This document shows, piece after piece, positions 11,396 through 52,345 of a stretch of DNA of 64,000 nt. Numbering within the stretch: position 1 is the stretch's first letter; every line of letters begins with the position of its first letter. Source of the stretch: Rhizobium sp. BT04. GTDB lineage: Bacteria; Pseudomonadota; Alphaproteobacteria; Rhizobiales; Rhizobiaceae. Position numbers and translations under genes: made by a program. Location: positions 496,001-560,000 of the forward strand of contig NZ_CP125652.1 in NCBI RefSeq assembly GCF_030053135.1, written 5' to 3'. Below the pieces are notes generated by a model that was not told the DNA's origin, made no database searches, and saw nothing but the letters and a program-made list of their open reading frames with translations.

Positions 11396-12546
11396 TGAAG
11401 GATATGACATCTCCGTCCGATCAGGCCGGCGGAACCGTCGCCATGGCCGTGCTCAACGCCATCCAGAACCCTGTCATCATGGTCGACGAATCCGGCTTCG
11501 TCGTGTTCGCCAATTGGGAGGCGGAGGCCTTCTTCGGCGCCAGCGCCTCGCATCTGGCGCGTTACCGCATCTCCACCTTCATTCCCTTCGGCAGCCCGCT
11601 GCTCGCCCTGATCGACCAGGTGCGTGAGCGCAAGGCCCCGGTCAACGAATATCGCGTCGATCTGAGTTCGCCCCGCCTCGGCCAGGACAAACTCGTCGAT
11701 CTCTACGTTGCCCCCGTGCTCAGCGAGCCCGGCGCTGTCGTCATCGTCTTCCAGGAACGCTCGATGGCCGACAAGATCGACCGGCAGCTGACGCATCGCG
11801 CCGCCGCCCGCTCAGTCACCGGTCTCGCCTCGATGCTGGCGCACGAGATCAAGAACCCGCTCTCCGGCATCCGCGGTGCCGCCCAGCTGCTCGAACAGTC
11901 GGCGGTCGACGACGACCGGGCGCTGACCCGGCTGATCTGCGACGAGACCGACCGCATCGTATCGCTGGTCGATCGCATGGAAGTCTTTTCCGACGAACGC
12001 CCCGTCGACCGCATGCCGGTCAACATCCATTCCGTGCTCGATCATGTGAAGGCCGTCGCCAGGGCGGGTTTTGCCCGCAACATCCGTGTCACCGAGAGTT
12101 ACGACCCGTCGCTGCCGGCGGTCTATGCCAATCGCGACCAGCTCGTCCAGGTCTTCCTCAATCTGGTGAAGAACGCCGCCGAAGCGGTCGGCGATCGGCC
12201 GGATGGCGAGATCATGCTGACGACGGCCTATCGCCCCGGCATCCGGCTCTCCGTCGCCGGCACCCGTGAAAAAATCTCGCTGCCGCTGGAATTCTGCGTC
12301 CACGACAATGGCCCCGGCGTTCCCGCCGATCTGCTGCCGCATCTCTTCGACCCCTTCATCACCACCAAGCCGAACGGCAGCGGCCTCGGCCTGGCGCTGG
12401 TCGCCAAGATCATCGGCGATCACGGCGGCATCATCGAATGCGACAGCCAGAACAGCCGCACGACATTCCGCGTCCTCATGCCGGCGTCGAAGGACGCCTC
12501 GCTCGAAGACGCCTCTTCCGCAAGCTCGACAGGACCTTCTCGATGA
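11392..12546 (+). CDS. ntrB: Nitrogen regulation sensor histidine kinase NtrB
   Basis: 384 residues, cytoplasmic. PAS domain (about 15-125), then HisKA with the phosphorylated His in [19 protein letters not shown], the N box [14 protein letters not shown]1 DNGPGVP and G2 GSGLGLALV. In enteric bacteria and rhizobia, PII signals nitrogen status to NtrB, which phosphorylates or dephosphorylates NtrC. The gene overlaps dusB by four bases and ntrC by four bases, so the three are translationally coupled. Confidence 0.95.
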
Positions 12547-13994
12547 CAGCCACGATCCTCGTTGCAGATGATGATGCGGCCATCCGGACCGTGCTCAACC
12601 AGGCTTTGAGCCGCGCCGGTTATGACGTCCGCATCACTTCCAACGCCGCTACCCTCTGGCGCTGGATTTCGGCAGGTGAGGGCGATCTGGTCGTCACCGA
12701 TGTGGTGATGCCCGACGAGAACGCCTTCGACCTGCTGCCGCGCATCAAGAAGGCGCGCCCCGAACTGCCGGTCCTGGTCATGAGTGCGCAGAACACCTTC
12801 ATGACCGCCATCAAGGCCTCCGAGAAGGGCGCCTACGATTACCTGCCGAAACCCTTCGACCTCACCGAATTGATCGGCATCATCGGCCGCGCGCTCGCTG
12901 AGCCGAAGCGCAAGCCCGCCAAACTCGAAGACGACGTGCAGGACGGCATGCCGCTGGTCGGCCGTTCGGCGGCGATGCAGGAAATCTATCGCGTTCTCGC
13001 CCGCCTGATGCAGACGGACCTGACGCTGATGATCACCGGCGAATCCGGCACCGGCAAGGAGCTCGTCGCCCGCGCCCTGCATGACTACGGCAAGCGCCGC
13101 AACGGCCCGTTCGTTGCGATCAACATGGCGGCGATCCCGCGCGACCTGATCGAATCGGAACTCTTCGGTCACGAGAAGGGCGCCTTTACCGGTGCGCAGA
13201 CCCGGTCGACCGGCCGCTTCGAGCAGGCCGAAGGCGGCACGCTCTTCCTCGACGAGATCGGCGACATGCCGATGGATGCCCAGACCAGGCTGCTGCGTGT
13301 CCTGCAGCAGGGCGAATACACCACCGTCGGCGGCCGCACGCCGATCCGCACCGACGTGCGCATCGTCGCCGCCACCAACAAGGACCTGAAACAGGCGATC
13401 AACCAGGGCCTGTTCCGCGAGGATCTTTATTACCGCCTCAATGTCGTGCCGCTGCGGCTACCGCCACTGCGCGACCGCGCCGAGGATATTCCCGATCTCG
13501 TGCGCCATTTCATCCAGCAGGCCGAAAAGGAAGGCTTGGGATCCAAGCGCTTCGATCAGGAAGCGCTGGAATTGATGAAGGCCTATGCCTGGCCGGGCAA
13601 CGTCCGCGAGCTGGAAAATCTCATCCGCCGTCTGATGGCGCTCTATCCGCAGGATGTCATCACCCGCGAGATCATCGACGCGGAGCTGCGCTCCGACGTA
13701 CCCGACAGCCCGATCGACAAGGGGCCGATCCGCAGCGGCTCGATGACGATCGCGCAAGCCGTCGAGGAAAACATGCGCACCTACTTCTCGGGCTTCGGCG
13801 AAAGCCTGCCGCCGCCCGGCCTCTATGATCGTGTGCTGACGGAAATGGAGTATCCGCTGATCCTCGCCGCCCTGACGGCGACGCGCGGCAACCAGATCAA
13901 GGCGGCCGATCTTCTCGGTCTCAACCGCAATACCTTGCGCAAGAAGATCAGGGAACTGGGTGTCTCGGTCTATAGGAGTTCCCGCACCGCCTGA
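12543..13994 (+). CDS. ntrC: Nitrogen regulator NtrC, sigma-54-dependent activator
   Basis: 483 residues. Receiver domain 1-120 with phospho-acceptor D53 in [16 protein letters not shown]+ domain with Walker [21 protein letters not shown] sigma-54 contact loop and [14 protein letters not shown]-terminal Fis-type helix-turn-helix ([20 protein letters not shown]). ATG 12543 overlaps the ntrB stop; an upstream in-frame start is ignored. The last 191 coding bases are part of a perfect repeat found again at 22633, so the reading frame is intact even though an insertion begins directly behind the gene. Confidence 0.96.
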
Positions 13995-14000
13995 GCGCGT
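13804..14000 (+). repeat. 197-bp perfect direct repeat, left copy (ntrC 3' end)
   Basis: Bases 13804-14000 are identical by eye to 22633-22829 over 197 bases. They span the last 191 coding bases of ntrC and six bases behind the stop. The bases just outside differ on both sides. This copy belongs to the full-length ntrC. Confidence 0.93.
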
Positions 14001-14172
14001 TCGCGCTTGTACGGTGCTCCCGGAAATCTTAGGACTACCCATCTAAGTGGTTGAGACAATTATATTTCTTGCGATAACGTTCTGCGAGCGTCTGGCGCTG
14101 ATTTCGGCCCCCAGGCACCCAATTTAGCGCTCGCAATCGGGTGACCGCTGACGTCATCGACGGTTACACTCG

Positions 14173-15156
14173 TCAAAATCCCGCAAGCCGCTGAACCAGC
14201 CAGAACGCCGACACCGATCCAATCACGTACGCGAGACGGAGGCGCAGCCGGAGAATGTCGGCCACCAACAGTCGAACACCGGCCATCGTCAGCAGGGCCG
14301 CGGCAACGAAGACAAGCTGTCCTGCCTCGACCCCTAGATTGAAAGTAAGTAGTGCCAGCGGCACGTCCTTCTGCGGCAAACCGATTTCCCGCAAGGCACC
14401 GCCGAAGCCGAAGCCGTGCAACAAACCGAAGAGGAAACTTATGATCCATGGATACCGGCTTGAGAGATCCCGCCTTCCTTGATCTGACCGAATGATCTCC
14501 GCGCCGACGAACATGATGCTGAGCGCTATCAGCGCTTCTACCGGAGGCTGCGGCACGGCCGCGATCCCGAGCGTGGCGAAGGCGAGCGTCACCGAGTGCG
14601 CTACCGTGAAGGAGGTAATGGTCGCAAGTAGCGCCCTTGGATTCCCGATCAAAAGCAGGAGCGCGAACACGAACAGGAGATGGTCCACGCCCGTCACGAT
14701 GTGCTGGACGCCGAGTACGAAATACGTCCGGGCCGTGGCCATCGCAGTTGGCGTCGCGGCGATCACGACGTCCGGATAGTCGGGCGAAACGCGGCTCGTC
14801 TGCGTTGTGCCATCGAAATTGACCACTCTGATCAGCGCATCCGTGTAGGTCGACGCGAGGCCGTTGATGGCGACCACGCCGCCCGCCAGACCGCCCTCGC
14901 ACACCGCCTGCCAGCGGGTGATGAAAGCATTGTCGATGAAACCGCCTGCGCGGTCGCCGTCCTGCATGCAGGACGGAGGGAGGAGCACGTCGAGCGCCAT
15001 CTTGTAGTCGCCCTGGGCGGGAACCTTCCACGTCAATGCGTAGTGATGCGTTGCAACCTCGTTGATCTCGAGGTAGGCCGGCCTCAGCTCATGCGCACCG
15101 GCTGCGGAACAGGCGAGAAGAACGAAGCCGATGATAAGGTAGATGAATCGGGTCAT
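14173..15156 (-). CDS. HupE/UreJ-like membrane protein with periplasmic N-terminal domain
   Basis: 327 residues. An N-terminal signal sequence (IGFVLLACSAAGAHELRPAY) leads to a periplasmic region of about 130 residues. Then comes a five- to six-helix membrane domain with HupE/UreJ signatures: VLGVQHIVTGVDHLLF, SFTVAHSVTLA and SFLFGLLHGFGFGGALREIG, plus LTFNLGVEAGQ. HupE and UreJ are linked to nickel handling for hydrogenase and urease, but this longer signal-bearing subfamily has no known metal role and no such enzyme is nearby. It overlaps the upstream PPIase gene by four bases. Confidence 0.85.
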   Translation of the reverse strand: MTRFIYLIIGFVLLACSAAGAHELRPAYLEINEVATHHYALTWKVPAQGDYKMALDVLLPPSCMQDGDRAGGFIDNAFITRWQAVCEGGLAGGVVAINGLASTYTDALIRVVNFDGTTQTSRVSPDYPDVVIAATPTAMATARTYFVLGVQHIVTGVDHLLFVFALLLLIGNPRALLATITSFTVAHSVTLAFATLGIAAVPQPPVEALIALSIMFVGAEIIRSDQGRRDLSSRYPWIISFLFGLLHGFGFGGALREIGLPQKDVPLALLTFNLGVEAGQLVFVAAALLTMAGVRLLVADILRLRLRLAYVIGSVSAFWLVQRLAGF

Positions 15157-16034
15157 CTGACCCCCGATGTCTTGATTGCCGATGCGGACATGCCGGTCGG
15201 CCAGACCACGCGCACCTCGTAGTGCTTCTTCATGTCTTCGTAGCGCTGGGCGGCGATCTGCGACCGTCTTCCACTCTCCCAGTCAAGCCGGACAGCCTCT
15301 CGCACATCCGCAAGCGGCGGCGTGCCTCCCTCTTTCTTCTCATCGACATAGACCAGGTGGCCGCCGAAAGGAGAGTTCAAGGGTCCGACCCACTCGCCTT
15401 CGGGGACGAGTTTCAGGGCCGCGACGAAGTCCTCGCCGAAGATGCTGGCAACGACGTCGGCATCCGACAGTTCCATTCGTTCGGGAAGAAGGGTCGGATC
15501 GCCAGCGGTTTCCTCTGAAGTCGCAGCTGTTTCGAGGCGCGCCCGGACAATTTTCGCTCTTTCTACGGTGCTCTCGGATGAAACTTTGCCGTCGAAGAAG
15601 ATCTGGCGGAACGCCAACCTGTCCTGAGTGCGGAACTTTCCGGCATTTGCCGCGAGATACGCCTCCAGTTCTCCCTCCTTCGGTATCAGTTCTTCAGCGC
15701 TCGGTTCGAGCAGGAACTCCATCTTCTGCTGCATGCGACGCCGCACGAGGGTGTCGTCCTTGTCGAGGCTCATCTTCAATCCCTCCCTGTAGAAGACCTC
15801 CTCCTTGACGCGGCTGTCGACCATGTTTGCGAACTCCGCTTCGGTCGGCGGTCGCTGCCAGGTTCGCGAGAAGCTCTCGAACAACTGGCCGAGCTCGCCC
15901 TGTCCGAGCTCGATCACCTGGCCATCCGCCGACACCGGCGAGCGGGTCACGGCCGAATACAGACCGAAGACCGTGACGCCCAGCAGTAGAAAGTGCACCA
16001 ACGGTTCCCTAATGATCGTTTTGAGGATCTTCAT
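15153..16034 (-). CDS. Membrane-anchored parvulin-type peptidyl-prolyl isomerase
   Basis: 293 residues. A single N-terminal membrane helix (PLVHFLLLGVTVFGLYSAV) anchors a periplasmic region. Residues about 60-120 form a SurA/PrsA-like chaperone helix bundle (VDSRVKEEVFYREGLKMSLD), and about 135-260 a PpiC-like rotamase domain with FRQIFFDG and VGPLNSPFGGHLVYVDEKK. Such proteins assist folding of exported proteins. It lies 46 bases downstream of the DUF3604 gene and overlaps the HupE-like gene, so it may serve this operon's products. Confidence 0.82.
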   Translation of the reverse strand: MKILKTIIREPLVHFLLLGVTVFGLYSAVTRSPVSADGQVIELGQGELGQLFESFSRTWQRPPTEAEFANMVDSRVKEEVFYREGLKMSLDKDDTLVRRRMQQKMEFLLEPSAEELIPKEGELEAYLAANAGKFRTQDRLAFRQIFFDGKVSSESTVERAKIVRARLETAATSEETAGDPTLLPERMELSDADVVASIFGEDFVAALKLVPEGEWVGPLNSPFGGHLVYVDEKKEGGTPPLADVREAVRLDWESGRRSQIAAQRYEDMKKHYEVRVVWPTGMSASAIKTSGVR

Positions 16035-16080
16035 CCCAGGCTCCTGGCTGTCCGTAAACTCGGCATGCGCACGGTGGTCC

Positions 16081-18054
16081 TCATGCTGGATTGTACCAGA
16101 TCGGCGAGGTGTAGGCCCGCTCCTGGGTCTTCATCCGCACCTCGGGTCCCATCTCGATGCCGAAATATTTGGCGTCGTAGGCGGTCCACCGCGGCGTGGG
16201 AATTTCGAGAACGCGACCATAGTAGAACGCCCTCTGGCTCGGATCGAATTCAGGGTCCTTCCAGAACGCGATCAGTTCGGAGGAGCCGATCGTGTTCGTG
16301 AAGGTGGCGTTGGCGACATCGACGGTATCGCCGACGGGGGGCAGCTTTCCATCCGCCCCTGGTTTGCGCGCGTCGGACCAGGCGACGTCGTAGACCTTCT
16401 CGTGGACTTCGCCCGCCGCATCGAGCCAGCCCTTCACCACCTGGTAGCGGTCGAGGTTGGCACCGATCGGATCCTTCAAAGCGGCGACCAGGAAGGTGGG
16501 AACCTTTTCGTTCGGAGCGGGGCCGATGTCGCCGCCCATTGGGACACCCTTCGTATATCCGGCGATTGCCGGGCTGCGGCTGGTGGCGTCGGCCTCATCG
16601 AAATCGAACCCGCCGAAGAAACGCACCAACATCCGTGGTCCCGTGGTCGCATAGGTTTCCCGCCGTTTCATCGCGTCGAAGATGGATGCGCGGGTGTTGT
16701 CTTGCGCCCAGACTGCCGCGTAGCCAGATGCCGTCTGCTCCCAGCCCGTAATGGTTATGCCAAGGCTGGGATTCTTCATGAACGGATGTTTCCAGCGCTC
16801 GGCATTCGGCTCATTGCTCGAGATCTTTCCCCAGAAGTTGTCGTCGTCCGCGGTGGAAAGGCCGGTATGGGAATCCGTGCTGCCCACCAAACCGAACTTG
16901 TAGGGATTGACCCCGAGTTCCTTTTCGAGCTTCAAGCCGGTCTGAAGCGCGGAGCGGGTATACTCGTACTGCAGCATGTCAGGCGTCTTCTTCTGGCTGA
17001 CATCCAGATTACCCTTGTCCCAGCGCTCAAAATTGGCGAATTCGTCGTTGGGAGAAAGCAACGGGTGCGTCTCGCCGTCGCCTTTCATCTGGGTGGTCTC
17101 GTAGAGAACCTCCCAGCGCGTGCGCTGCTCCGCATATTCCCGGTCGATGGGTTTGCCCGTGAACGACTCGATGATCGGGAACATGGTACCGTTGCTGAGA
17201 TTGCCGTTATGGGCGATCGCCAGCGCCTGGCCGCCTGTCTTGTCCTCATAGGCTGCAAGCCACTTCCACAGATCGCGGGGATTGTTGCTGCCGAGAGGCG
17301 GCTGGGTAGTGTAAGGCTCGATCATCGCCGCCTTGTCGCCGTTGTCACGGAAGATGACGTTGCGGTGGAGGTTGTTGCCCGTGGCAAGCGACGTCCATTC
17401 GTAGCCGATCAGCGCGGTGAAGCGGCCCGGCTCATTCGCCTCCTCGGCGGCATCGATGATGCTCTGCCAGGTGGACCTGTAGGCGGCTGTTCCGGGTCGA
17501 TAAAGGAGATCAGGAGGGAATTTCCCTTGGGAGAACGTGGTGACGATGTCGTAGGCGGCCGCCGCCCCTTGGCCATTCTGGATCATGTCGAACCAGCTCC
17601 GGGCCTGGGCGTTCTTCAGAATCTCCGGCTTGCCTGCCATAAAGTCGGCAATGAAGCCGAGATTGTCGGAGTGATCGGTGACAACCAGGAAGTCGAGGGG
17701 CCTTGAGAGCTTGACCGGCTGGCCGCTCGAGGCGGTGATCTCCGCACCCTTTGCAAGTCTATAGGCCTCGCGCGGCCCTATCCTGGCCCCTGCCGCGCCC
17801 GCGTCGAACGACAGGTTGGTATGCAGGTGGGTGTCGCCGAAGAGCGGCCGCATCGGAAAGTTACGTCCGGCCCAGGGCGAATAGGGCCGCTTCTTCGGAA
17901 AGATATCGGCACCGGTGGCCTTGGTGATGTCACCGATGTCGGTATGAACTGCATCCTGGGACCAGACCGGGTGAGGCATTCCGGCGGACAGAAGTCCGAC
18001 CAAGGCGATACCCGTCCACAAGTCGCGTCTGTTACGACTGCTCTTCAAGTACAT
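16081..18054 (-). CDS. DUF3604 protein, exported PHP-like metal-dependent hydrolase
   Basis: 657 residues with a signal peptide (LWTGIALVGLLSAGMPHPVWSQD). The DUF3604 family shares PHP-domain metal ligands: GDTHLHTNLSFDA (about 73-85), DFLVVTDHSDNLGF, ALAIAHNGNLSNG and VGSTDSHTGL. PHP proteins usually cleave phosphoesters with a multi-metal site, but DUF3604 substrates are unknown. The gene heads the minus-strand group DUF3604-PPIase-HupE-like. All visible metal-ligand motifs are intact, so it is probably active. Confidence 0.88.
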   Translation of the reverse strand: MYLKSSRNRRDLWTGIALVGLLSAGMPHPVWSQDAVHTDIGDITKATGADIFPKKRPYSPWAGRNFPMRPLFGDTHLHTNLSFDAGAAGARIGPREAYRLAKGAEITASSGQPVKLSRPLDFLVVTDHSDNLGFIADFMAGKPEILKNAQARSWFDMIQNGQGAAAAYDIVTTFSQGKFPPDLLYRPGTAAYRSTWQSIIDAAEEANEPGRFTALIGYEWTSLATGNNLHRNVIFRDNGDKAAMIEPYTTQPPLGSNNPRDLWKWLAAYEDKTGGQALAIAHNGNLSNGTMFPIIESFTGKPIDREYAEQRTRWEVLYETTQMKGDGETHPLLSPNDEFANFERWDKGNLDVSQKKTPDMLQYEYTRSALQTGLKLEKELGVNPYKFGLVGSTDSHTGLSTADDDNFWGKISSNEPNAERWKHPFMKNPSLGITITGWEQTASGYAAVWAQDNTRASIFDAMKRRETYATTGPRMLVRFFGGFDFDEADATSRSPAIAGYTKGVPMGGDIGPAPNEKVPTFLVAALKDPIGANLDRYQVVKGWLDAAGEVHEKVYDVAWSDARKPGADGKLPPVGDTVDVANATFTNTIGSSELIAFWKDPEFDPSQRAFYYGRVLEIPTPRWTAYDAKYFGIEMGPEVRMKTQERAYTSPIWYNPA

Positions 18055-18127
18055 TCTCGTTCTCCTCTAGCGAACACAGTTTCGGCTTCCATGTCGGAAT
18101 CTCGAAATCGCAAGTTCCAGGTTTTGA

Positions 18128-18316
18128 TCAGTCCACATTGACGACGACGTAGCGGCGCCCGGCGGACTGATAGTATGCTCCTCCACATCGCCAGACGACC
18201 GCTCCGCCGACGCTCGTCTTCGCACAGCCGGCAGGCAGGGCGGCGACATACATCGAAGTACGACGGATGGTTCTGCGCGTTGTCCGGCGAGCCACGCCTG
18301 CCACGCTGCCTGGCGT
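18128..18316 (-). pseudogene. 3' fragment of a small secreted SVAGVARRT-type protein
   Basis: Reading the minus strand gives SVAGVARRTTRRT, then VAALPAGCAKTSVGG, WRCGGAYYQSAG and YVVVNVD, ending at 18128. This is the C-terminal part of a small exported protein of a type I recall from rhizobia, with Arg-Thr repeats and a Cys/Tyr-rich tail. The signal peptide half is missing: at about 18317 the sequence changes to an ntrC tail on the other strand. A relative with the missing N-terminal half lies at 19587-19799. Confidence 0.65.
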
Positions 18317-18397
18317 CGCAAGAAGATCAGGGAACTTGGCGTCTCGGTCTACAGGAGTTCCTGCACCGCCTGAGCGTGTCCGGGTTTGCACGGTGTG
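18317..18397 (+). repeat. Third, diverged copy of the ntrC tail and downstream region
   Basis: Bases 18317-18373 encode [17 protein letters not shown] and a stop, matching the ntrC C terminus with one Arg-to-Cys change and silent changes. Another roughly 24 bases resemble the sequence behind the resident ntrC stop (GCGTGTCCGGGTTTGCACGG against GCGCGTTCGCGCTTGTACGG). It is diverged, so it came from another strain or is older than the perfect repeats. Confidence 0.85.
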
Positions 18398-18542
18398 CTG
18401 CGGTGAGCACGGGGAGGATCGCTCTGTGATCCTCATCCATCAGCGTTCCATGCGCCGCGGCAAGCGGCATCAGCCGAAAAGTCATGAGCTTCATTGACGT
18501 CTCCACCGTACCAAACTCGATCTGCTGTTCCAGGCGTCGTTC

Positions 18543-19331
18543 TCAGAACTGGATGACGACGCCGAGGATCGGACCCTGCTGGACGACGTCGAAGACAAAG
18601 CCGTCGTTGTCGTAATCAACGCCGAGTGCGCGGTATCCCGCAACGGCCGAGATCGTGTCGGTGAACTTGTAGCCGAGCGCGAGCGCCAGATCCCAGTCTA
18701 GATCCGCGCCGCCGGCGCCGACGAGACCCCATCCTGTCAGATAGATCTCCGGCGTGAAGAAGTAGTTGCCTCGGACGCCGACCAGACCGTCGACCCAGGT
18801 CGCGCTGTCATCGGCCTCGACGCCACCGAGGATCCCGCCATGGAAGGAGATGTTGGTGTCGACCGACCACACTCGGATGCCGCCGACGACATCGAGGTGT
18901 CCCGACTGGTCCTCCAGCACCGAGTAGCCGACCCCGAGAAGTCCGGCGAAGGTCTTTGAGGTGACGTCGACGCTGTCGGCGAGAATGCCAAGCGGCGTAT
19001 TCGCGTCTGCGCCAAGCTTGGTGTAGATGATGTCGCCGAAGATGCTGAACCGGTCGTACCGCGCTTCACCGGCGGCCATGAAGGCGAAATCGAGGTTCTG
19101 CAGGATGTCGCCGAAATCGGAGTCGATATGAACCTCCGGCAATCCGAACTGTGCAATGTCTCCGGAAATCCCTGCCATCCAGAAATACGGCGCGACGGTG
19201 AAGGTCCAGCCGCTCGGGCTCTCGACTACTTTTGCATCGGGTGTTAGCGGCGTCGGATCGGCTGCCCAGCCGGGCGAGGTTGCCACGAGACCCGCGCAAA
19301 GGACCGCCGCGCGTAGAAGAAAAGCCGTCAT
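18543..19331 (-). CDS. Predicted outer-membrane beta-barrel protein
   Basis: 262 residues from the ATG at 19331; an in-frame start 18 codons upstream would precede the signal peptide. Signal peptide FLLRAAVLCAGLVATSPGWA. The mature part has alternating strands rich in Gly and aromatic residues (WTFTVAPYFWMAGISGDI, YSVLEDQSGHLDVVGGIRVW, LALALGYKFTDTISAVAGYR) and ends in a terminal Phe (GVVIQF), typical of outer-membrane barrels. I do not recognise a named family with certainty. It may export or bind the ligand of the surrounding envelope system. Confidence 0.72.
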   Translation of the reverse strand: MTAFLLRAAVLCAGLVATSPGWAADPTPLTPDAKVVESPSGWTFTVAPYFWMAGISGDIAQFGLPEVHIDSDFGDILQNLDFAFMAAGEARYDRFSIFGDIIYTKLGADANTPLGILADSVDVTSKTFAGLLGVGYSVLEDQSGHLDVVGGIRVWSVDTNISFHGGILGGVEADDSATWVDGLVGVRGNYFFTPEIYLTGWGLVGAGGADLDWDLALALGYKFTDTISAVAGYRALGVDYDNDGFVFDVVQQGPILGVVIQF

Positions 19332-19586
19332 GAAAGTCCCCCCTGCTTTGTCGGTCTCCATCGTGGTCGCCGACCAATCGAACATATCATCGATCTCCGC
19401 TCAACTCTGGCGCAACACCCGCCTGCGGATAAGTATGTTACAGTAGCATCTGTCCGTCTGTGGCATTGCCCGCATTTGTCCCGCCGATGTCGGAGTCAGG
19501 GTCTGCAGCTCGGCGTTGGGCGTACCTCGTCCTAGCTTTTCCTTCATGCTGGGCGCTTGTCGAATGCGTTCGCCAGGCCAGTTTTT

Positions 19587-19799
19587 CTAGCAATAATAGA
19601 CGCCGGCGGCGCAACGCCGGACCGTGCGGCGCGCAACTCCAGCGACACTCACAGGCGTCAGCGGGCGGCCAATCCTGGCCTCTGCTGGCGTGAAGACCCC
19701 ATCCACTCCCGGGATCGAAAGCCCGTTTCCAAGTTCGAGGCCGGACACGCCGATCGCCGTAGCGAGCAGCAGGGTTTTCAGTTTTCTTACGACGGTCAT
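19587..19799 (-). CDS. Small exported SVAGVARRT-type protein, probably shortened
   Basis: 70 residues: signal-like N terminus KTLLLATAIGVSGLELGNG, then ARIGRPLTPVSVAGVARRTVRRCAAGVYYC and a stop. The fragment at 18128-18316 shares SVAGVARRT and continues about 50 residues further, so this copy has lost, or never had, the Cys/Tyr tail. Its ATG overlaps the stop of the DUF2092 gene (ATGA), which indicates translational coupling. Confidence 0.55.
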   Translation of the reverse strand: MTVVRKLKTLLLATAIGVSGLELGNGLSIPGVDGVFTPAEARIGRPLTPVSVAGVARRTVRRCAAGVYYC

Positions 19800-20605
19800 T
19801 TGGTGCCTCCCATGGCAAGGTGATCAGGAAGCTCGTCAATATCGGCAAGCTTCGTCAGGTCGACTTTCTCGGCGTTCGTGATGTTTTTGAAACCGAAATC
19901 GTCAGCAACGACATCGGTGCCTGTCTTCCAGTCACTGATCTGGATGCTGTATTGTGGGCTTTGATCCACCTGGCTTGCGGTGATGACATATCGACAGGGA
20001 TATGGATGCTCGCCCTGAGCGATCCATATCTGCCAGTCGACTTCCTTGGTGCGGAATGCAAGGTGGTCGCATTCGACGCCGCCGATCACACCGCTGCCGA
20101 GGTCCTTGACGTCGACCACGTCGCGCATCAACTCGTCATAGGCATCCGGGAGCAGAAGATCGGCACCCGGAACGGGTCTATGGAGCTTGTCCCGCAATTC
20201 GTCGATCAGGTGATCTATGGTGCCTGGAACTTCTGTCTGGGCATAGAGGTTGGCGTTCTTGCCGAGCAGCGAGAGCGTCTTGCCGTCGAATGTGACCTCG
20301 ACGTTGGCGAACCCACCAAACCGGGTAACCCGGAGTTTATCCGGTCGGCCCATTTCAATCTTGCCGGAACTTGCCAGCAGAAGCTTCTGATGGTCGACGG
20401 TGACCACCTCCAGGTTGGTGTCATACGAAAAGGAGATCGCCTTTTCTGCGGCCAGGTAGTCGGACATGGTTTTAACGAGCTTCTTGGCGTCTGCGTCGGC
20501 TGCGCTTGCAGCCGATCCACATCCCAAGGTGACCATCAAGCCGAGTGCCGCGGAAGACGCCGCCGCCACGGCAGGGTGCAAGGCTCGCTGGGGTGCTTTG
20601 GTCAT
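19796..20605 (-). CDS. DUF2092 exported protein
   Basis: 269 residues with a signal peptide (AAASSAALGLMVTLGCGSAASAAD). The mature part matches the DUF2092 family, which resembles LolA/outer-membrane carrier folds: LVKTMSDYLAAEKAISFSYD, KIEMGRPDKLRVTRFGGFAN, FDGKTLSLLGKNANLYAQ, and GVECDHLAFRTKEVDWQIWI. Function is unknown; a LolA-like lipid- or lipoprotein-binding role is only a structural guess. It is coupled to the downstream small exported protein. Confidence 0.82.
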   Translation of the reverse strand: MTKAPQRALHPAVAAASSAALGLMVTLGCGSAASAADADAKKLVKTMSDYLAAEKAISFSYDTNLEVVTVDHQKLLLASSGKIEMGRPDKLRVTRFGGFANVEVTFDGKTLSLLGKNANLYAQTEVPGTIDHLIDELRDKLHRPVPGADLLLPDAYDELMRDVVDVKDLGSGVIGGVECDHLAFRTKEVDWQIWIAQGEHPYPCRYVITASQVDQSPQYSIQISDWKTGTDVVADDFGFKNITNAEKVDLTKLADIDELPDHLAMGGTK

Positions 20606-20775
20606 CGACGAATCCCTTCGAATTGGTTTGGTCGGACGACTGAGATCGCTCCATGGGTCCCGAGTATGAAAGAACGACTGTCAGCGACCTACAGCCTACA
20701 CGGACAGGACGGCGCGCGCGTGTAACATCGGGTATGTTCTGTTGGCAGTTTTCCTGACATCCGCTTCTACAAGCA

Positions 20776-22085
20776 CTACCGCGGCTCAAGGGCCTCGGAG
20801 CCGTCGATCGGCCGCGACATCGTCGCCTGCGCCTCGTCCATTGCAAGCAGTCCGGCCGTTCGCAGATCGGCGATCACCCGTGCGCGGTCCTGCGGCTGGA
20901 AATTGCGCGTGTTGAGTTCGGCCACGATGTTCGGAATGAAATCGGGTCTCATTTCGTTGAACCGCGCGGCCTCTCTGCGGGCGCCCTCAATCATTCCGGC
21001 GTCGACGTAGATGACGGCAGCCACCGCATGGAATAGCGGGAACTTCTGCAGGTCCGCCTGCCTGATGTCGATGACCGCAGTCTTGTCGTCGTGCAGCATG
21101 TAGGCTGCGAGTGCGCGCGTTCCGCGATAGTAGCCGCAGCCGGCAGGGTTGAGAGCAATGGCACTATCCAGCAATGCGGCCCCGCGCTGCCACTCCCCGC
21201 TCATCGCCAGCCGGGTGCCAAACTCTCCTAGCAATTCGGTGTCGTTCGGATTGGTCGCCAGTGCCCGTTCGCCGATCTGAAGTGCTTCCGGAACCCGCTG
21301 GCTGAAAAACAGCGCCGTTGCCGGGATCCAGTTGAACGGCACGGCGGGCGGCCTGAAAGCTGCGATCTATCGGCGCGGACGAAATGGGCTTCCGATTGAA
21401 CCTGAAACGATCCTCGTCGAGATAGAGGATGGACAACATCGCCCAGGCGGTCGCAAAGGATGGATAGCGGGCGACAGCGCTTTCGAGGCAGTTTCGAACC
21501 TCGCCGTGCCGCTCGGTGCTCAACTCGGCACGGTAAGCATAAAAGCTCAGCGTGCAGCCGTAGACGCCGAGATCATCAGGCGGGTTGGAGACATCGGCCT
21601 GGGCGATGATGCCATAGGGCTGCGCCACCGCGGTCGCAACCTTGTTTGCGACGTCGGACTGGATGGTGAACAGGTCGCGGACGCCGATGTCGTCGTCGTA
21701 GGTCTGCGACCAGAGGATCTCATCGGTCTCTGTGTCGAGCAGACGTGCCGTCACACGCACTCGGCTTCCGGAAACGCGGACACCGCCTGCCAGCAGGAAA
21801 CGTACGCCAAGTTCCCGGCGAATCCGCGATGTCTCCACCTCTGGCGGCAACGATTTGGACGTCTCGCGACCCGAAGACCCTGATCTCCTTGAAGCGGGGA
21901 AGGGCAGTGAGCAGTTCCTCTGTCAGGCCAGTCTTGTAGAGTTCCGCCTGAGGACCATCACCGAGATTAGCAAATGGAGCGATCACCAATGTCGGGCCAT
22001 CAGATCCCGCTATGTCGGCAGTCGGGAAGGGCCAGATCCAGCCAAATCGAATGGAGGTCAAGTCGGCCAGGGCTGCAGCGCCGCC
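20776..22085 (-). pseudogene. TolB-like/TPR signalling protein (cyclase-regulator type), broken
   Basis: Three frames are needed to read it. From about 22061: TLVIAPFANLGDGPQAELYKTGLTEELLTALPRF, a FlgO/TolB-like domain. A one-base insertion in the CCC run at about 21870 shifts to REL..RFLLAGGVRVSGSRVRV and LDTETDEILWSQTYDDDIGV. Near 21320 a small deletion shifts again to ALFFSQRVPEALQIGERALATNPND, the TPR part. Such modules follow DNA-binding or adenylate cyclase domains. That N-terminal part is missing: upstream of about 22085 the sequence becomes an arylsulfatase fragment. Confidence 0.78.
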
Positions 22086-22088
22086 TGA

Positions 22089-22385
22089 TTGGAACAGCCG
22101 GACGGTTGGACAGGCAACACGGTGAAATTGGACGTGCCGACCGTTGTAAACCTGCGCCTTGATCCGTTCGAGCGTACGGCCTTTTTCAAGGGTAACGTTG
22201 GTTCACAAGAATACTTTGAATGGTACAAGTTCGAGTTTTGGCGTTTCGTCCTCGTTCAGCAAAAAGTTGAAGAGCTGGCGAAGACTGCCATTGAATTTCC
22301 GCCGATGCAGAAGGGCGCAAGCTTCGGAATAGACGCAGTCAAGGCACAAATCGCCGAGGCCATGCGCAAGCAACACGCACAGTAA
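22089..22385 (+). pseudogene. Arylsulfatase, C-terminal fragment
   Basis: About 98 residues: VPTVVNLRLDPFERTAFF, EWYKFEFWRFVLVQQKV, AKTAIEFPPMQKGASFGIDA and KAQIAEAM. These match the C terminus of periplasmic arylsulfatases of the AtsA type. The catalytic N-terminal domain with the formylglycine Cys is absent. It lies divergently beside the broken TolB/TPR gene, and both have lost their 5' ends at the same junction (about 22085), so one deletion probably removed both starts and the shared promoter region. Confidence 0.75.
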
Positions 22386-22506
22386 GCCAAGTTGCACGTC
22401 GCATGGCGCGGCACGTCAATGCGGGTGGAGGGCTTTTCTGCCTCCAGCCGCATTGAACCAGCTTTTGTCGAGGGACGGCGTCAAGCCTCCTCACGCCGAT
22501 CGGCTT

Positions 22507-22823
22507 GCGGCCGCACGCTGATCCGCACCGATGTGCGCATTGTTGCCGCCACCAACAAGGACCTGAAGCAGGCGATCAACCAGGGCCTCTTCCGCCAGGA
22601 TCTCTATTACCGCTTCAATGTCGTGCCGCTGCGCCTGCCGCCGCCCGGCCTCTATGATCGTGTGCTGACGGAAATGGAGTATCCGCTGATCCTCGCCGCC
22701 CTGACGGCGACGCGCGGCAACCAGATCAAGGCGGCCGATCTTCTCGGTCTCAACCGCAATACCTTGCGCAAGAAGATCAGGGAACTGGGTGTCTCGGTCT
22801 ATAGGAGTTCCCGCACCGCCTGA
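22507..22823 (+). pseudogene. Chimeric, internally deleted ntrC 3' fragment
   Basis: Bases 22507-22632 match ntrC 13331-13457 with about 11 mismatches, mostly silent (one Glu to Gln and one Leu to Phe). The sequence then jumps in frame to ntrC 13804 and is identical to the end of the gene. The deletion removes roughly 350 bases of the AAA+ C-terminal part. Junction at a short shared CTGCCGCC-like run. No start codon of ntrC is present, so a functional product is unlikely, though the frame stays open to the stop at 22823. Confidence 0.9.
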
Positions 22824-22829
22824 GCGCGT
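22633..22829 (+). repeat. 197-bp perfect direct repeat, right copy
   Basis: Identical to 13804-14000. It lies at the right edge of the inserted segment and forms the second half of the chimeric ntrC fragment. Confidence 0.93.
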
Positions 22830-23421
22830 CGAGGGCGCGATAAAAAAGAAGGCGGCGGGCCCTCATGTTTGCCCACCGCCCACCCCTCCCGGCGTCCGCC
22901 GCCACGGTCGGGAGGAGAGGTGAGCCTATCTGAGCCAGGTCGCGGTTTATATCCAAGCAGAGAAACAAAACTGCGGTGTCATTCTACAGTCACATAAGTA
23001 TTTGTGAGGAGTGATTTGACGCCAGGCGAATGTCATTGAAGTTGCTGCGGTCGTCGTCGCCTTGCCTGTGGATAAGCTGTGGATATCCGGTGGACGACAC
23101 GATCAATCAGCGGTCGATAACGTCGCCGATTCCAATCGCATGTTGCCTATCCGTTCCGAATCTCATTATTTGCCGTTGCTGCCGTCGACCTCCGCCGCAA
23201 ACGTCGTCGATCGCATGCCACGGGCGCTCCGACTGTTGTCGTGGAGCGCCCTTTTTCTTTACGCTCAGGGGCTGACGGGAACTGCGACATCGTGTTTTGG
23301 TCAACTTGGCGGGATGAGCCTCGCATATCGTTGCGCATGCCATAGATTACGCGAGTCGGTCGTCGATCGATCGCGCGACGCCGGTGATCGGCCGGCCCAG
23401 TTCAAAATTTTCGGGAGCTGC
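22830..23421. other. 590-base intergenic stretch with a strong terminator
   Basis: No convincing protein gene; the open frame covering 23062-23421 is only an upstream extension of the reductase frame. A strong terminator at 23222-23260 has no gene before it, so the stretch may hold an untranslated RNA or the remains of a lost gene. Confidence 0.5.
23222..23260 (+). terminator. Strong Rho-independent terminator without an upstream gene
   Basis: Perfect nine-base-pair stem GGGCGCTCC / GGAGCGCCC, 12-base loop, then TTTTTCTTT. The closest upstream coding sequence is the ntrC fragment ending at 22823. Confidence 0.8.
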
Positions 23422-23424
23422 ATG

Positions 23425-24414
23425 ATGGAATATCGTCGTTTGGGAAAGTCGGGGCTGCAAGTGAGCGAGTTCTCCTTCGGCTCATGGGTCACGTTCGGCA
23501 AGCAGGTCAACGGCGGCGACGCCGTCGACCTCATGAAGCTTGCCTATGACAACGGGGTGAACTTTTTCGACAATGCCGAAGGTTACGAAAGCGGCAAGTC
23601 CGAAATTGTCATGGGCGAGGCGCTCAGGTCGCTTGGTTGGAGCCGCGACAGCTTCGTCGTCTCGAGCAAGGTCTTCTGGGGCGGTCAGAAACCGACGCAG
23701 CGCGGTCTGTCGCGCAAGCATGTGACCGATGCCTGCCACGCGGCGCTCAAGAGGCTTCAGGTCGATTACCTCGACCTCTATTTCTGCCACCGCCCCGACA
23801 TCGACACGCCTGTCGAGGAAACCGTCCGGGCGATGCATGATCTCGTCGCCCAAGGCAAGGTGCTCTACTGGGGAACGTCGGAATGGTCCGCGCAGCAACT
23901 GACGGAAGCCTACGCCGTTGCCCGGGACCTGCGCATCACGCCGCCGACCATGGAGCAGCCGCAATACAACATCTTCGAACGCCAGAAGGTCGAGTCCGAC
24001 TATCTCAGACTCTACGACCTCATCGGCCTCGGCACAACGATCTGGTCGCCGCTCGCCTCCGGCGTCCTGACCGGCAAATACAACAACGGTGTGCCGGCCG
24101 ACAGCCGCATGAACCTGCCGGGCTACGAGTGGCTGAAGGAAAAATGGTCCAGCGATGCCGGCCGCGCCCAGCTCGCACAAGTTGGCGAACTGGCAAAGCT
24201 TGCCGACGAGATCGGCATGTCGATCACCCATCTCGCGCTTTTGTGGTGCCTCGCCAATCGGAACGTCTCGACCGTCATTCTCGGCGCGTCGCGCGCCAGC
24301 CAGTTGCAGGACAATCTCGCGGCCCTCCAGCACAGGCACAAAGTCACGTCCGACGTGCTGGATCGGATCGACCTGATCGTTGGAAACAAGCCGGAAGAAC
24401 CGCGTCGCTTCTAA
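23425..24414 (+). CDS. Aldo/keto reductase (YghZ / potassium-channel-beta type)
   Basis: 329 residues with the NADPH-dependent aldo/keto reductase TIM barrel: EYRRLGKSGLQVSEFSFGSW, FFDNAEGYESGKSEIVMGEAL with the catalytic Asp and Tyr, VVSSKVFWG with the Lys, LDLYFCHRPD with the His, and the C-terminal cofactor motif ILGASRASQLQDNL. The substrate is unknown. ATG 23425 fits GGGAG at 23413; ATG 23422 is also possible. The long upstream extension lacks similarity. It sits between the ntrC fragment and ntrY; whether it is native here cannot be decided from this window. Confidence 0.9.
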   Translation: MEYRRLGKSGLQVSEFSFGSWVTFGKQVNGGDAVDLMKLAYDNGVNFFDNAEGYESGKSEIVMGEALRSLGWSRDSFVVSSKVFWGGQKPTQRGLSRKHVTDACHAALKRLQVDYLDLYFCHRPDIDTPVEETVRAMHDLVAQGKVLYWGTSEWSAQQLTEAYAVARDLRITPPTMEQPQYNIFERQKVESDYLRLYDLIGLGTTIWSPLASGVLTGKYNNGVPADSRMNLPGYEWLKEKWSSDAGRAQLAQVGELAKLADEIGMSITHLALLWCLANRNVSTVILGASRASQLQDNLAALQHRHKVTSDVLDRIDLIVGNKPEEPRRF

Positions 24415-24620
24415 AAACTGTGACGGGCCGAGGGCATGCACGGCTTGACAACGTGACGGGGTGCGTTGCATTTTCGCCACAATGCGTTGCTTAAAGGTCA
24501 CGCAAGGGTTTTGGTATTTCGCTCCCGATCGAGTCGTTAGCGCGCTGGCTTTCTTAAGCCGGCGTTGCTCGGTTTCGATCGGATGGCGAAGGCGGCGGCT
24601 GCCGTCTGAAGAGAGGCCGA

Positions 24621-26891
24621 ATGACGCAGGATGGGGTATCGCCGGCGGCGGCAGGCGAGGCGGTGACGACGGTGACCGATCGTCGCGCCCTTTTCGCCGT
24701 GCCCGGCCTGGTGCTTGCCGGCGGCGCGCTTCTCTGCGCCACGGTGACGCTTTTCGTGCTGCTTGGTCTCACCCCGATCGCGCCGAGTTCGCATGTCGTC
24801 ATCACCTCGGTGATCGTCAATTCCTTCTTTGTCCTGACGCTGCTGGCGCTGATCGGGCGCGAGGTGGCAAGGCTGCTCAAGGCGCGTACCCGCGGCCGTG
24901 CGGCCGCCCGTCTGCACATCCGCATCGTCGTGCTGTTCTCGATCGTCGCGATCACCCCGGCGATCCTCGTCGCCATCTTCGCCAGTATCACGCTGAACGC
25001 CGGTCTCGACCGCTGGTTTGCGCTGCGCACCCAGTCGATCGTCAGCTCGTCGCGCAATATCGGCCAGGCCTACATGATGGAGAATGCCAGCTATCTCCAG
25101 GGGCAGACAGTCTCCATGGCCAACGATCTGGAGCGCAACCGGGCGCTCTATAGCCTCGACCGGACGGGTTTTGCCGACCTGATGACACGCCAGGCGAGGG
25201 GCCGCGGCCTGCTCGGCTCCTTCCTCGTCGAGCGCGACGGCTCGGTGATCGTCCAGGCTGACATCGCCACCGAAAAACCGTTGCCGGCGATCCCGCAGGA
25301 TGCGCTGGAAAAGGCCGCTGCCGGCCAGCCGACGCTGATCCCGCCCGGCGTTACCAACCTCGTCGGCGCCATCATCAAGCTCGACGCCATCCAGGGCACC
25401 TTCCTCTATACGGTGCGCGCCGTCGATCCCAAGGTCATGGGCGCCATGCGGATGATGGAGGAGAACGCCACCGAATACCGGTCGATGGAGGCCAACCGCT
25501 TCTCGCTGCAGGTCGCCTTCGCCGTGCTCTACATCGGCTTCGCGCTGATCGTGCTGCTCGCGGCGATCTGGACGGCGATCGCCGTTGCCGACCGCATCGT
25601 CCGGCCGATTCGCCTGCTGATCACCGCGGCCGACAGCGTCGCATCGGGCAATATGGATATCGTCGTGCCGGTGCACGCCGTCGATGGCGACGTGGCCAAT
25701 CTGTCGCGCACCTTCAACAAGATGATCTCTGAGATCCGCACCCAGCGCGACGAGATCCTCGAAGCCAAGGACGAGGTCGACGACCGCCGCCGCTTCATCG
25801 AAGCGGTGCTGTCGGGCGTCACTGCCGCCGTCATCGGCGTCGAGCAGGATCGTCGCGTCGCCATCGTCAACAGTTCGGCCGAAACGCTGATGTCGCTATC
25901 GGCCGACGAGATGCTCGGCAAGCAGCTGGTCGACATCGCGCCTGAGGTCGATCACGTGCTGACCGAGGCGGCGTCGCGTCATCGCGGCGATTTCCGCAAG
26001 CAGATCGCGTTGGTGCGTGGCGGCACTGTGAGGACGCTGAGCGTGCAGGTCACCCGCGAGGAAGTGCGCGATATGAGCGAATCCTATGTGATTACGCTCG
26101 ACGACATCACCGACCTCGTCATCGCCCAGCGCTCGACCGCCTGGGGCGACGTGGCAAGACGCATCGCCCACGAGATCAAGAACCCGCTGACCCCGATCCA
26201 GCTTTCCGCCGAGCGCATCCAGCGGCGTTACGGCAAGCAGATCGACCCGAATGACCGGACCGTCTTCGACCAATGCACCGATACGATCATCCGCCAAGTC
26301 GGCGATATCGGCCGCATGGTCGACGAATTCTCCGCCTTCGCCCGCATGCCGAAGCCGACCAAGGAGCCGAGCGACTTGCGCGACATCCTGCGCGACGCGA
26401 TCTTCCTGCGCGAGATGGGCAATCATCATGTCAGCTTTGCGCAGGATTTCGGCGAGCAGCCGCTGGAGGGCCTGTTCGATAGCCGCATGCTCGGCCAGGC
26501 TTTCGGAAATCTGATCAAGAATGCCGTGGAAGCGATCGAAGCCGTTCCGAGCGACGAACGGGACGAACGCAAGATTCTCGTTCGCGCCGCCTTCGATTCC
26601 GGCCGCGACCGGTTCACCGTCGATGTCATCGACAATGGCCGTGGCCTGCCGGTGGAGAACCGCCACAGCATTCTGGAACCCTATATGACGATGCGCGAGA
26701 AGGGCACCGGCCTTGGCCTCGCCATCGTCAAGAAAATCATCGAGGAACATGGCGGGCAGCTCGAACTGCACGATGCGCCCGCCGATTTTGACCGGGGAAG
26801 AGGGGCCATGATCCGCGTGCATCTGCCACGCCTGGATCCGACACCCGCTGCTCCCGCAGCCAATGACAAGGAAAGCGTTTATGGCCTCTGA
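24621..26891 (+). CDS. ntrY: Nitrogen regulation sensor histidine kinase NtrY
   Basis: 756 residues. Several N-terminal membrane helices (about 25-110) and one near 300-325 flank a periplasmic sensor region. Then HAMP (about 325-378), PAS (about 390-490), HisKA with [20 protein letters not shown], and the ATPase with LIKNAVEAIEAV, DNGRGLP and GTGLGLAIVKKI. NtrY is reported to respond to nitrogen and redox conditions and signals to NtrX, whose gene overlaps by 11 bases. Confidence 0.94.
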   Translation: MTQDGVSPAAAGEAVTTVTDRRALFAVPGLVLAGGALLCATVTLFVLLGLTPIAPSSHVVITSVIVNSFFVLTLLALIGREVARLLKARTRGRAAARLHIRIVVLFSIVAITPAILVAIFASITLNAGLDRWFALRTQSIVSSSRNIGQAYMMENASYLQGQTVSMANDLERNRALYSLDRTGFADLMTRQARGRGLLGSFLVERDGSVIVQADIATEKPLPAIPQDALEKAAAGQPTLIPPGVTNLVGAIIKLDAIQGTFLYTVRAVDPKVMGAMRMMEENATEYRSMEANRFSLQVAFAVLYIGFALIVLLAAIWTAIAVADRIVRPIRLLITAADSVASGNMDIVVPVHAVDGDVANLSRTFNKMISEIRTQRDEILEAKDEVDDRRRFIEAVLSGVTAAVIGVEQDRRVAIVNSSAETLMSLSADEMLGKQLVDIAPEVDHVLTEAASRHRGDFRKQIALVRGGTVRTLSVQVTREEVRDMSESYVITLDDITDLVIAQRSTAWGDVARRIAHEIKNPLTPIQLSAERIQRRYGKQIDPNDRTVFDQCTDTIIRQVGDIGRMVDEFSAFARMPKPTKEPSDLRDILRDAIFLREMGNHHVSFAQDFGEQPLEGLFDSRMLGQAFGNLIKNAVEAIEAVPSDERDERKILVRAAFDSGRDRFTVDVIDNGRGLPVENRHSILEPYMTMREKGTGLGLAIVKKIIEEHGGQLELHDAPADFDRGRGAMIRVHLPRLDPTPAAPAANDKESVYGL

Positions 26892-30976: not shown

Positions 30977-31112
30977 GCCTGCCCCTAACCCTCTCCCCGT
31001 AAACGGGGCGAGGGGACGTGCCCTGCGAGAGGTGAGCGAGGAATCGAGAGGTCGCGGTTATCCCCCTTCGCCCCGCAGGCGGGGAGAAGGTGGCGGCAGC
31101 CAGATGAGGGGC
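30977..31112. repeat. Rhizobial intergenic mosaic (RIME-like) repeat, copy 1
   Basis: GC-rich repeat with the hairpins CTCTCCCCGTAAACGGGGCG and CGCCCCGCAGGCGGGG, bordered by GCCTGCCCCT and ATGAGGGGCTGG. The same order recurs at 52173-52345. This class of element is widespread between genes in Rhizobium. Confidence 0.85.
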
Positions 31113-52172: not shown

Positions 52173-52345
52173 CGCCTGCCCCTCACCCTAACCCTCTCCC
52201 CGTAAACGGGGCGAGGGGACGTGCCCTGCGTTGGCGAGGAACGGAGAGGTCGCGGCATCCCCCTTCGCCCCGCAAGCGGGGGTCCGAAGGACGGGTCGAG
52301 ACCCGTGGCTCGACCCCGGTCGGTGGCGGCAGGCGGATGAGGGGC
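52173..52345. repeat. Rhizobial intergenic mosaic (RIME-like) repeat, copy 2
   Basis: Same order of hairpins as 30977-31112, with an added hairpin (GGTCGAGACCCGTGGCTCGACC) before the GGTGGCGGCAG border. It fills the gap between DUF2938 and the convergent ThuA-like gene. Confidence 0.85.

Follow-up and report, generated by a model that had tools for sequence, protein, structure and literature searches.

The interval between ntrC and ntrY in Rhizobium sp. BT04 carries stacked blocks of genes separated by displaced pieces of the ntrC 3′ end, and related genomes carry comparable insertions at the same place. We analyzed a stretch of 64,000 nucleotides (hereafter, the window; contig NZ_CP125652.1, positions 496,001 to 560,000, forward strand) in which two gene blocks, Z and X, and a relic of a third, Y, lie directly behind ntrC. 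The feature is real and recurrent, and it is of a known kind, the sequential displacement array in an integrase-free hotspot, with an anatomy that is new. In the reading that we favor, with a probability of roughly 0.55, incoming DNA recombined homologously within ntrC at one end and was joined illegitimately at the other, repetition of this process stacked the blocks, and gene conversion and deletion then reshaped them. The copies of the ntrC 3′ end in the window are as follows (all on the + strand):

12543..13994, +: intact ntrC, 483 aa (translation and list of open reading frames, ORFs)
13804..14000, +: intact ntrC 3′ end, equal to 22633–22829; its last 166 bp are foreign relative to the near relative G083
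13938..14016, +: 79-bp stretch, ntrC tail plus 22 bp past the stop, repeated at 18317–18395
18317..18395, +: displaced ntrC tail at the Z/X junction, 79 bp, 89% identical to 13938–14016 with 9 mismatches
22507..22829, +: displaced ntrC remnant, decayed, with an internal deletion whose joint lies at 22633–22642

An earlier note on this DNA had described a single 8.6-kb insertion bounded by a perfect 197-bp direct repeat of the ntrC 3′ end. The repeat is indeed identical over its 197 bp, with just two full-length matches and a third, partial one in the 6.99-Mb genome, and the full-length gene does keep its frame, uninterrupted over all 483 codons. The single insertion did not hold up: because of the middle tail at 18317–18395 and the longer, diverged remnant on the right, at least two insertions are needed, leaving two blocks and a relic. 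Within that remnant, 22507–22642 corresponds to ntrC 13330–13465 at 92% identity and is followed by the 197-bp repeat, with about 0.34 kb of ntrC absent between the two parts. Since the neighboring part of the same remnant is only 92% identical, we read the perfect repeat as the product of later homogenization, not as an original boundary; 100% identity beside a 92% neighbor suggests gene conversion in one direction or the other. The ten bases common to both remnant matches (22633–22642) are GCCTGCCGCC, which stands at 13456–13465 in 45 of 56 aligned ntrC genes, BT04 ntrC not among them, and at 13804–13813 in only two of the 56, one of which is BT04.

Comparison with related genomes, which the earlier note had proposed as a check, shows that extra DNA recurs at this locus. 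The sample comprised 148 genomes of the genus, with a near clade of 50 (ntrY at least 89% identical, BT04 included). The features to the right of the inserted DNA in the window are the following:

22830..23000: native flank behind ntrC, probable terminator region, matching empty-site genomes such as G083
23422..24414, +: aldo/keto reductase (Pfam PF00248), in the clade also present without the blocks
24462..24481: conserved 20-bp block upstream of ntrY, with at most 2 substitutions in 56 of 56 fetched loci
24621..26891, +: ntrY (ORF list; 600-bp search)

The near relative G083 has an empty site, its ntrC–ntrY interval measuring 1,803 bp against 10,627 bp in BT04, which is 8.8 kb longer. Outside the near clade, 178–363 bp separate the ntrC and ntrY matches in the 94 of 98 genomes measured (G095, G123, G134 and G144, with no ntrC place listed, fall outside the 94). 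Within it, 16 of the 50 genomes have an interval of 1.78–1.93 kb containing the aldo/keto reductase, three have a shorter one, and 31 have a longer one, up to 24 kb; the interval of about 18 kb in G068 was taken from separate ntrC and ntrY match positions. The main extra DNA in these 31 genomes lies directly behind ntrC in 12, before the reductase in seven, and after the reductase in 12, and a few genomes have smaller extras in addition. The locus thus has fixed flanking core genes and variable content, and mobility genes are absent from the scanned parts of X, Y and Z, as in integrase-free hotspots; no published account of the ntrC–ntrY locus as a hotspot was recognised in our literature search. 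The earlier note spoke of an insertion into a core regulatory operon, a description that goes too far: the genes need not form one broken operon, and the conserved block upstream of ntrY is present in every fetched locus. Behind the aldo/keto reductase of G056, a 51-bp piece resembling the reductase 3′ end occurs again about 1 kb downstream at 82% identity, and the end of a second core gene may thus have undergone the same displacement.

Both the 12 genomes with DNA directly behind ntrC and the six that bear displaced tails are scattered on the ntrC tree (56 rows), where 10 changes are needed for the former and six for the latter. When the behind-ntrC genomes are set against other-insertion genomes only, 8 changes are needed, compared with a shuffled mean of 9.8, and 76 of 500 shuffles are as low. 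The behind-ntrC label is therefore not significantly clustered, and repeated gain, transfer and loss are not distinguishable by these counts.

Displaced ntrC tails occur in six of the 12 genomes with DNA behind ntrC: BT04 (two tails), G104, G027, G030, G014 and G008. For the other 44 clade genomes, the fetched loci gave no displaced tail at E ≤ 1e-3, and the remaining behind-ntrC genomes (G001, G065, G031, G032, G006 and G009) lack a detected tail. The earlier note had named related genomes with the same genes and no repeats as evidence against its reading; such genomes exist, and half of the 12 keep their tails. At least two matches to the ntrC tail are present in 11 of the 148 genomes; of the five multi-match genomes beyond the tail-bearing six, the fetched loci of G075 and G043 hold one match each, and the loci of G069, G102 and G103 were not fetched with flanks. 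The seven tails have five start points (in window numbers, about 13938, 13330, 13872 and 13890, and 13781 in three genomes). The shared start at 13781 belongs to G030, G014 and G008, of which G014 and G008 also carry a Y remnant and have displaced tails that are G030-like at the start and then match their own allele.

Across six comparisons of intact and displaced tails from the same genome, there are 49 coding differences (G008 was left out for its gapped tail, and the identical 197 bp contributes none). The displaced base is found in another genome's ntrC at 39 of the 49, against 24% expected by random changes (binomial p = 2e-16, with sites treated as independent and the displaced tails being related to one another), and 37 of these 39 lie at third codon positions. 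At the remaining 10 the base is seen in displaced tails only, and none of them is at a third position. Because known alleles, mostly at third positions, predominate and the unique bases avoid that position, the displaced tails are mostly other alleles, once under selection and later decaying, although the same pattern would arise if the intact tail had been replaced afterward. Compared with G083, ntrC in BT04 differs at 19 of 1263 bp outside the tail and at 12 of 194 near the end, and these 12 all fall within the final 166 bp (Fisher p = 3e-4). A crossover of incoming DNA within the gene would be expected to leave such a G083-like ntrC with a foreign 3′ end, and here too a subsequent replacement would give the same result.

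The remnant on the right also contains an ORF, the only one of the scanned set that covers it:

22392..22823, +: 143-aa ORF on the ntrC remnant, encoding HTH_8 and part of the sigma-54 interaction domain (Pfam)

This ORF retains the complete Fis-type DNA-binding domain of NtrC (HTH_8). That it supplies a free DNA-binding domain competing with NtrC is highly improbable, because tail starts vary by genome and the bases found only in displaced tails are confined to the first and second positions of codons, as in decay.

Block Z is the block nearest to ntrC. Its features are these:

14017–18316: block Z, with HupE/UreJ, peptidyl-prolyl isomerase and DUF3604 genes
14017..14176: left part of block Z, used in a source search of the 148 genus genomes
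14173..15156, −: HupE/UreJ-like protein (Pfam PF13795)
15153..16034, −: PpiC-type peptidyl-prolyl isomerase (Pfam PF13145)
16081..18054, −: DUF3604 protein (Pfam PF12228)
18128..18316, −: residual end of a small gene truncated at the right joint of Z, a longer ORF in the G037 copy

A copy of Z at 94% identity lies elsewhere on the chromosome of G037, where the Z genes are followed by the small gene, a DUF2092-like gene, a TPR gene and a barrel gene (named by likeness to the window proteins, not by a Pfam scan of that locus). In BT04, Z breaks off inside the small gene and joins ntrC sequence at 18317; because this joint cuts a gene, the right end of Z looks like an illegitimate joint rather than a homologous one. 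The ratios of nonsynonymous to synonymous substitution rates for the three Z gene pairs are about 0.14, 0.18 and 0.06, and the Z genes have therefore been under purifying selection. For the left part of Z, the source search returned only the stretch itself and one weak match of 42 bp.

Further from ntrC, the inserted DNA is more reduced:

18380..22472: block X, decayed and shorter than its G027 counterpart (pairwise matches; right end located separately)
18543..19385, −: DUF481-like protein (Pfam PF04338, at the cut-off)
19796..20605, −: DUF2092 protein (Pfam PF09865)
20776..22061, −: TPR gene, broken across three ORFs, a single 612-aa ORF in G027
22473..22511: relic of the left part of block Y, 39 bp, between X and the ntrC remnant

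The counterpart of X in G027 is a block of about 14.8 kb. The relic at 22473–22511 resembles, in a comparison by eye, the left part of Y in G009, G065, G008, G006 and G104, and Y was probably once present here and then deleted at a 5-bp shared sequence. About 20 bases directly past the ntrC stop are common to X, Y and Z.

These observations fit a scheme in which the ntrC 3′ end would act as an entry point for gene blocks. Incoming DNA carrying another strain's ntrC 3′ end together with other genes would pair with the resident ntrC and cross over inside it, and its far end would be joined illegitimately to resident DNA, often within the old ntrC tail. The product would be an intact hybrid ntrC followed by the incoming block, then by a displaced fragment of the former tail, and finally by the DNA already present at the site. 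Further rounds would stack blocks, in BT04 in the order Z, X, Y from ntrC, and in time old blocks would be eroded by deletions at short shared sequences, while gene conversion could homogenize the tails. The older remnants stand in order downstream (Z, tail, X, Y relic, ntrC remnant). We infer that the blocks entered in the order Y, X, Z, with left joints homologous and right joints illegitimate at entry. Ku end joining may have been the agent of the right joint; the BT04 genome has four Ku matches, in two pairs (C6:149684-151092 and C6:3689900-3691585). The proposal in the earlier note of a non-integrase insertion by homologous recombination thus survives for the left side, where the lack of a visible integrase, the empty site of G083 and the foreign ntrC 3′ end agree with it, and not for the right end of Z, which looks illegitimate.

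A further idea, which we hold tentatively and consider possible though rather doubtful, is that the mobility module is none other than the displaced core-gene tail: a second ntrC 3′ end on the far side of an islet would give it homology handles at both ends. Host recombination could then pass the islet between species, or loop it out and let it re-enter, and such self-anchoring islets would form a class of integrase-free mobile islets. G014 and G008 would be the examples, given their Y remnant, the start point that they share with G030, and their tails that pass from G030-like to own sequence.

Those same two genomes also bear on a Campbell-type origin, in which a circle with an ntrC 3′ fragment and a block undergoes a single recombination event with the resident ntrC, so that the fragment is duplicated; recombination between the two tails in another strain could generate such circles. 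Campbell integration would produce the same layout, need no integrase, and explain both the other-allele tails and the displaced tails of G014 and G008, which begin G030-like and turn native. We nonetheless regard it as unlikely, as it explains neither where the first circle's ntrC piece came from nor the five tail start points, and in G014 native sequence gives way to foreign close to the stop on the left and far earlier in the right tail, whereas one crossover predicts the same point in both.

Insertion with a long target duplication would account for the direct repeats of 79 to over 200 bp that flank the blocks, a pattern described for restriction-modification genes (Nobusato et al. 2000, as cited in PMC1643837). 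Duplication of one target predicts matching copies, and the intact and displaced tails are mostly different alleles, a discrepancy that later replacement of the intact copy could produce. The tails on either side of Z differ at 9 of 79 sites (three of four coding differences are at third codon positions), even though ntrC outside the tail differs from G083 at only 19 of 1263. We consider this origin quite unlikely.

Integrative elements that insert at gene 3′ ends, like the cis-mobilisable remnants of such elements, restore the gene end on the left, leave a fragment on the right, and accrete in tandem. The blocks could be the remains of such an element, mobilized by an integrase in trans; the 3′ end of ntrC would then contain its attachment site, the tails would be attachment sites, and blocks would be added in tandem. 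The constant use of the same gene end, the intact gene on the left and fragment on the right, the tandem stacking and the shared stretch past the stop all agree with this. The ntrC islets differ from such elements in that no integrase was found in the ORFs and genomes searched, no common right arm was seen by eye, and tail length is variable. The earlier note had seen no integrase or transposase inside the insertion, and Pfam scans likewise returned none in 46 ORFs of at least 60 aa from window 13990–22840, none in 57 ORFs of at least 80 aa from the G027 block, and none in 31 ORFs of at least 80 aa from 6.9 kb of Y in G001. These scans cover parts of X, Y and Z at the behind-ntrC site rather than the blocks at the other two sub-sites; Y was covered by the G001 segment and selected ORFs of G104, G009 and G001, and serine recombinases were covered by the Pfam scans only. 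Among 89 matches to PF00589 in seven of the 12 behind-ntrC genomes, none lies in the interval (G008, G014, G030, G031 and G032 were not searched), and no integrase in the element or in a related complete element was found in the genomes searched. The block ends share about 20 bases on the left and have, by eye, no common right arm upstream of the tails of different blocks; the tails start at variable points, and Z ends mid-gene. The stretch past the stop was also considered as the end of a dispersed element or insertion sequence, a reading that is not supported: its 22 bases occur at 10 places in the 148 genomes, eight of them at ntrC and two elsewhere with 3 mismatches each, compared with four places for a reversed-pattern control, and the BT04 copy at the left end of X has more than 3 mismatches. 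A site-specific element is, on this evidence, very unlikely. An assembly artefact, to which exact repeats are prone in a sequence judged without reads, is almost certainly not the explanation, given a window within a 4.68-Mb contig of a 7-contig assembly, a remnant and middle tail that have diverged, and five other genomes with displaced tails at the same place.

The homologous-then-illegitimate entry that we favor has parallels in several described systems. Kirchberger et al. (2017; PMC5361080) described arrays of type VI secretion system (T6SS) effector–immunity and Rhs-end modules in which each new module comes in at a single conserved anchor and displaces older remnants downstream, so that modules stack up; homology-facilitated illegitimate recombination is proposed there as we propose it here. 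In the T6SS arrays the effector system provides the anchor and immunity genes make up the remnants, whereas the ntrC islets have the 3′ end of a nitrogen regulator as anchor, regulator pieces as remnants, and envelope or periplasmic cargo. Homology-facilitated illegitimate recombination likewise involves one homologous and one illegitimate joint; it was observed in Escherichia coli conjugation with small plasmids (PMC3240628), and at ntrC it is deduced from sequence. Integrase-free hotspots (Oliveira et al. 2017; PMC5635113) share the use of one site between two core genes, changing content, and recombination within one of the flanking core genes, but their model does not itself predict displaced core-gene tails, which at ntrC mark single entries. 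The restriction-modification case resembles ntrC in having a gene block flanked by long direct target repeats, and differs in that the ntrC repeats are mostly different alleles with the gene end kept on the left (PMC1643837).

Relatives of the cargo are also found on plasmids. Genes related to those of X and Z adjoin each other on pRle248d, together with genes for an arylsulfatase, a formylglycine-generating enzyme, a DUF1254 protein and others, and an X-like stretch at 91% identity is present on a 1.23-Mb plasmid of R. leguminosarum ATCC 14479. No ntrC tail was seen beside the plasmid relatives of X and Z genes among the best places listed. The plasmid neighbors hint that the cargo may belong to a sulfatase-related locus. 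On pRle248d (locus L107, 6046-23692), arylsulfatase, formylglycine-generating enzyme, DUF2092, adenylate cyclase, DUF1254, DUF3604, peptidyl-prolyl isomerase and HupE genes stand together, and this gene group is a candidate functional unit.

Elsewhere in the window, 30983–31084 and 52186–52281 are copies of an intergenic-type repeat, about 100 bp long and matched 51 times in the BT04 genome, presumably a dispersed rhizobial repeat element, and 283–507 and 1682–1908 form a direct repeat of 227 bp at 81% identity.

In conclusion, many hotspots of gene acquisition lack an integrase, and how genes first enter them is not settled (Oliveira et al. 2017; PMC5635113). Displaced ntrC tails may offer a readable record of such events, one that suggests in what order the blocks entered, on which side the homologous crossover took place and on which side the blind joint was made. 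The locus also suggests that a central nitrogen regulator is having its 3′ end rewritten by passing DNA with its reading frame kept.

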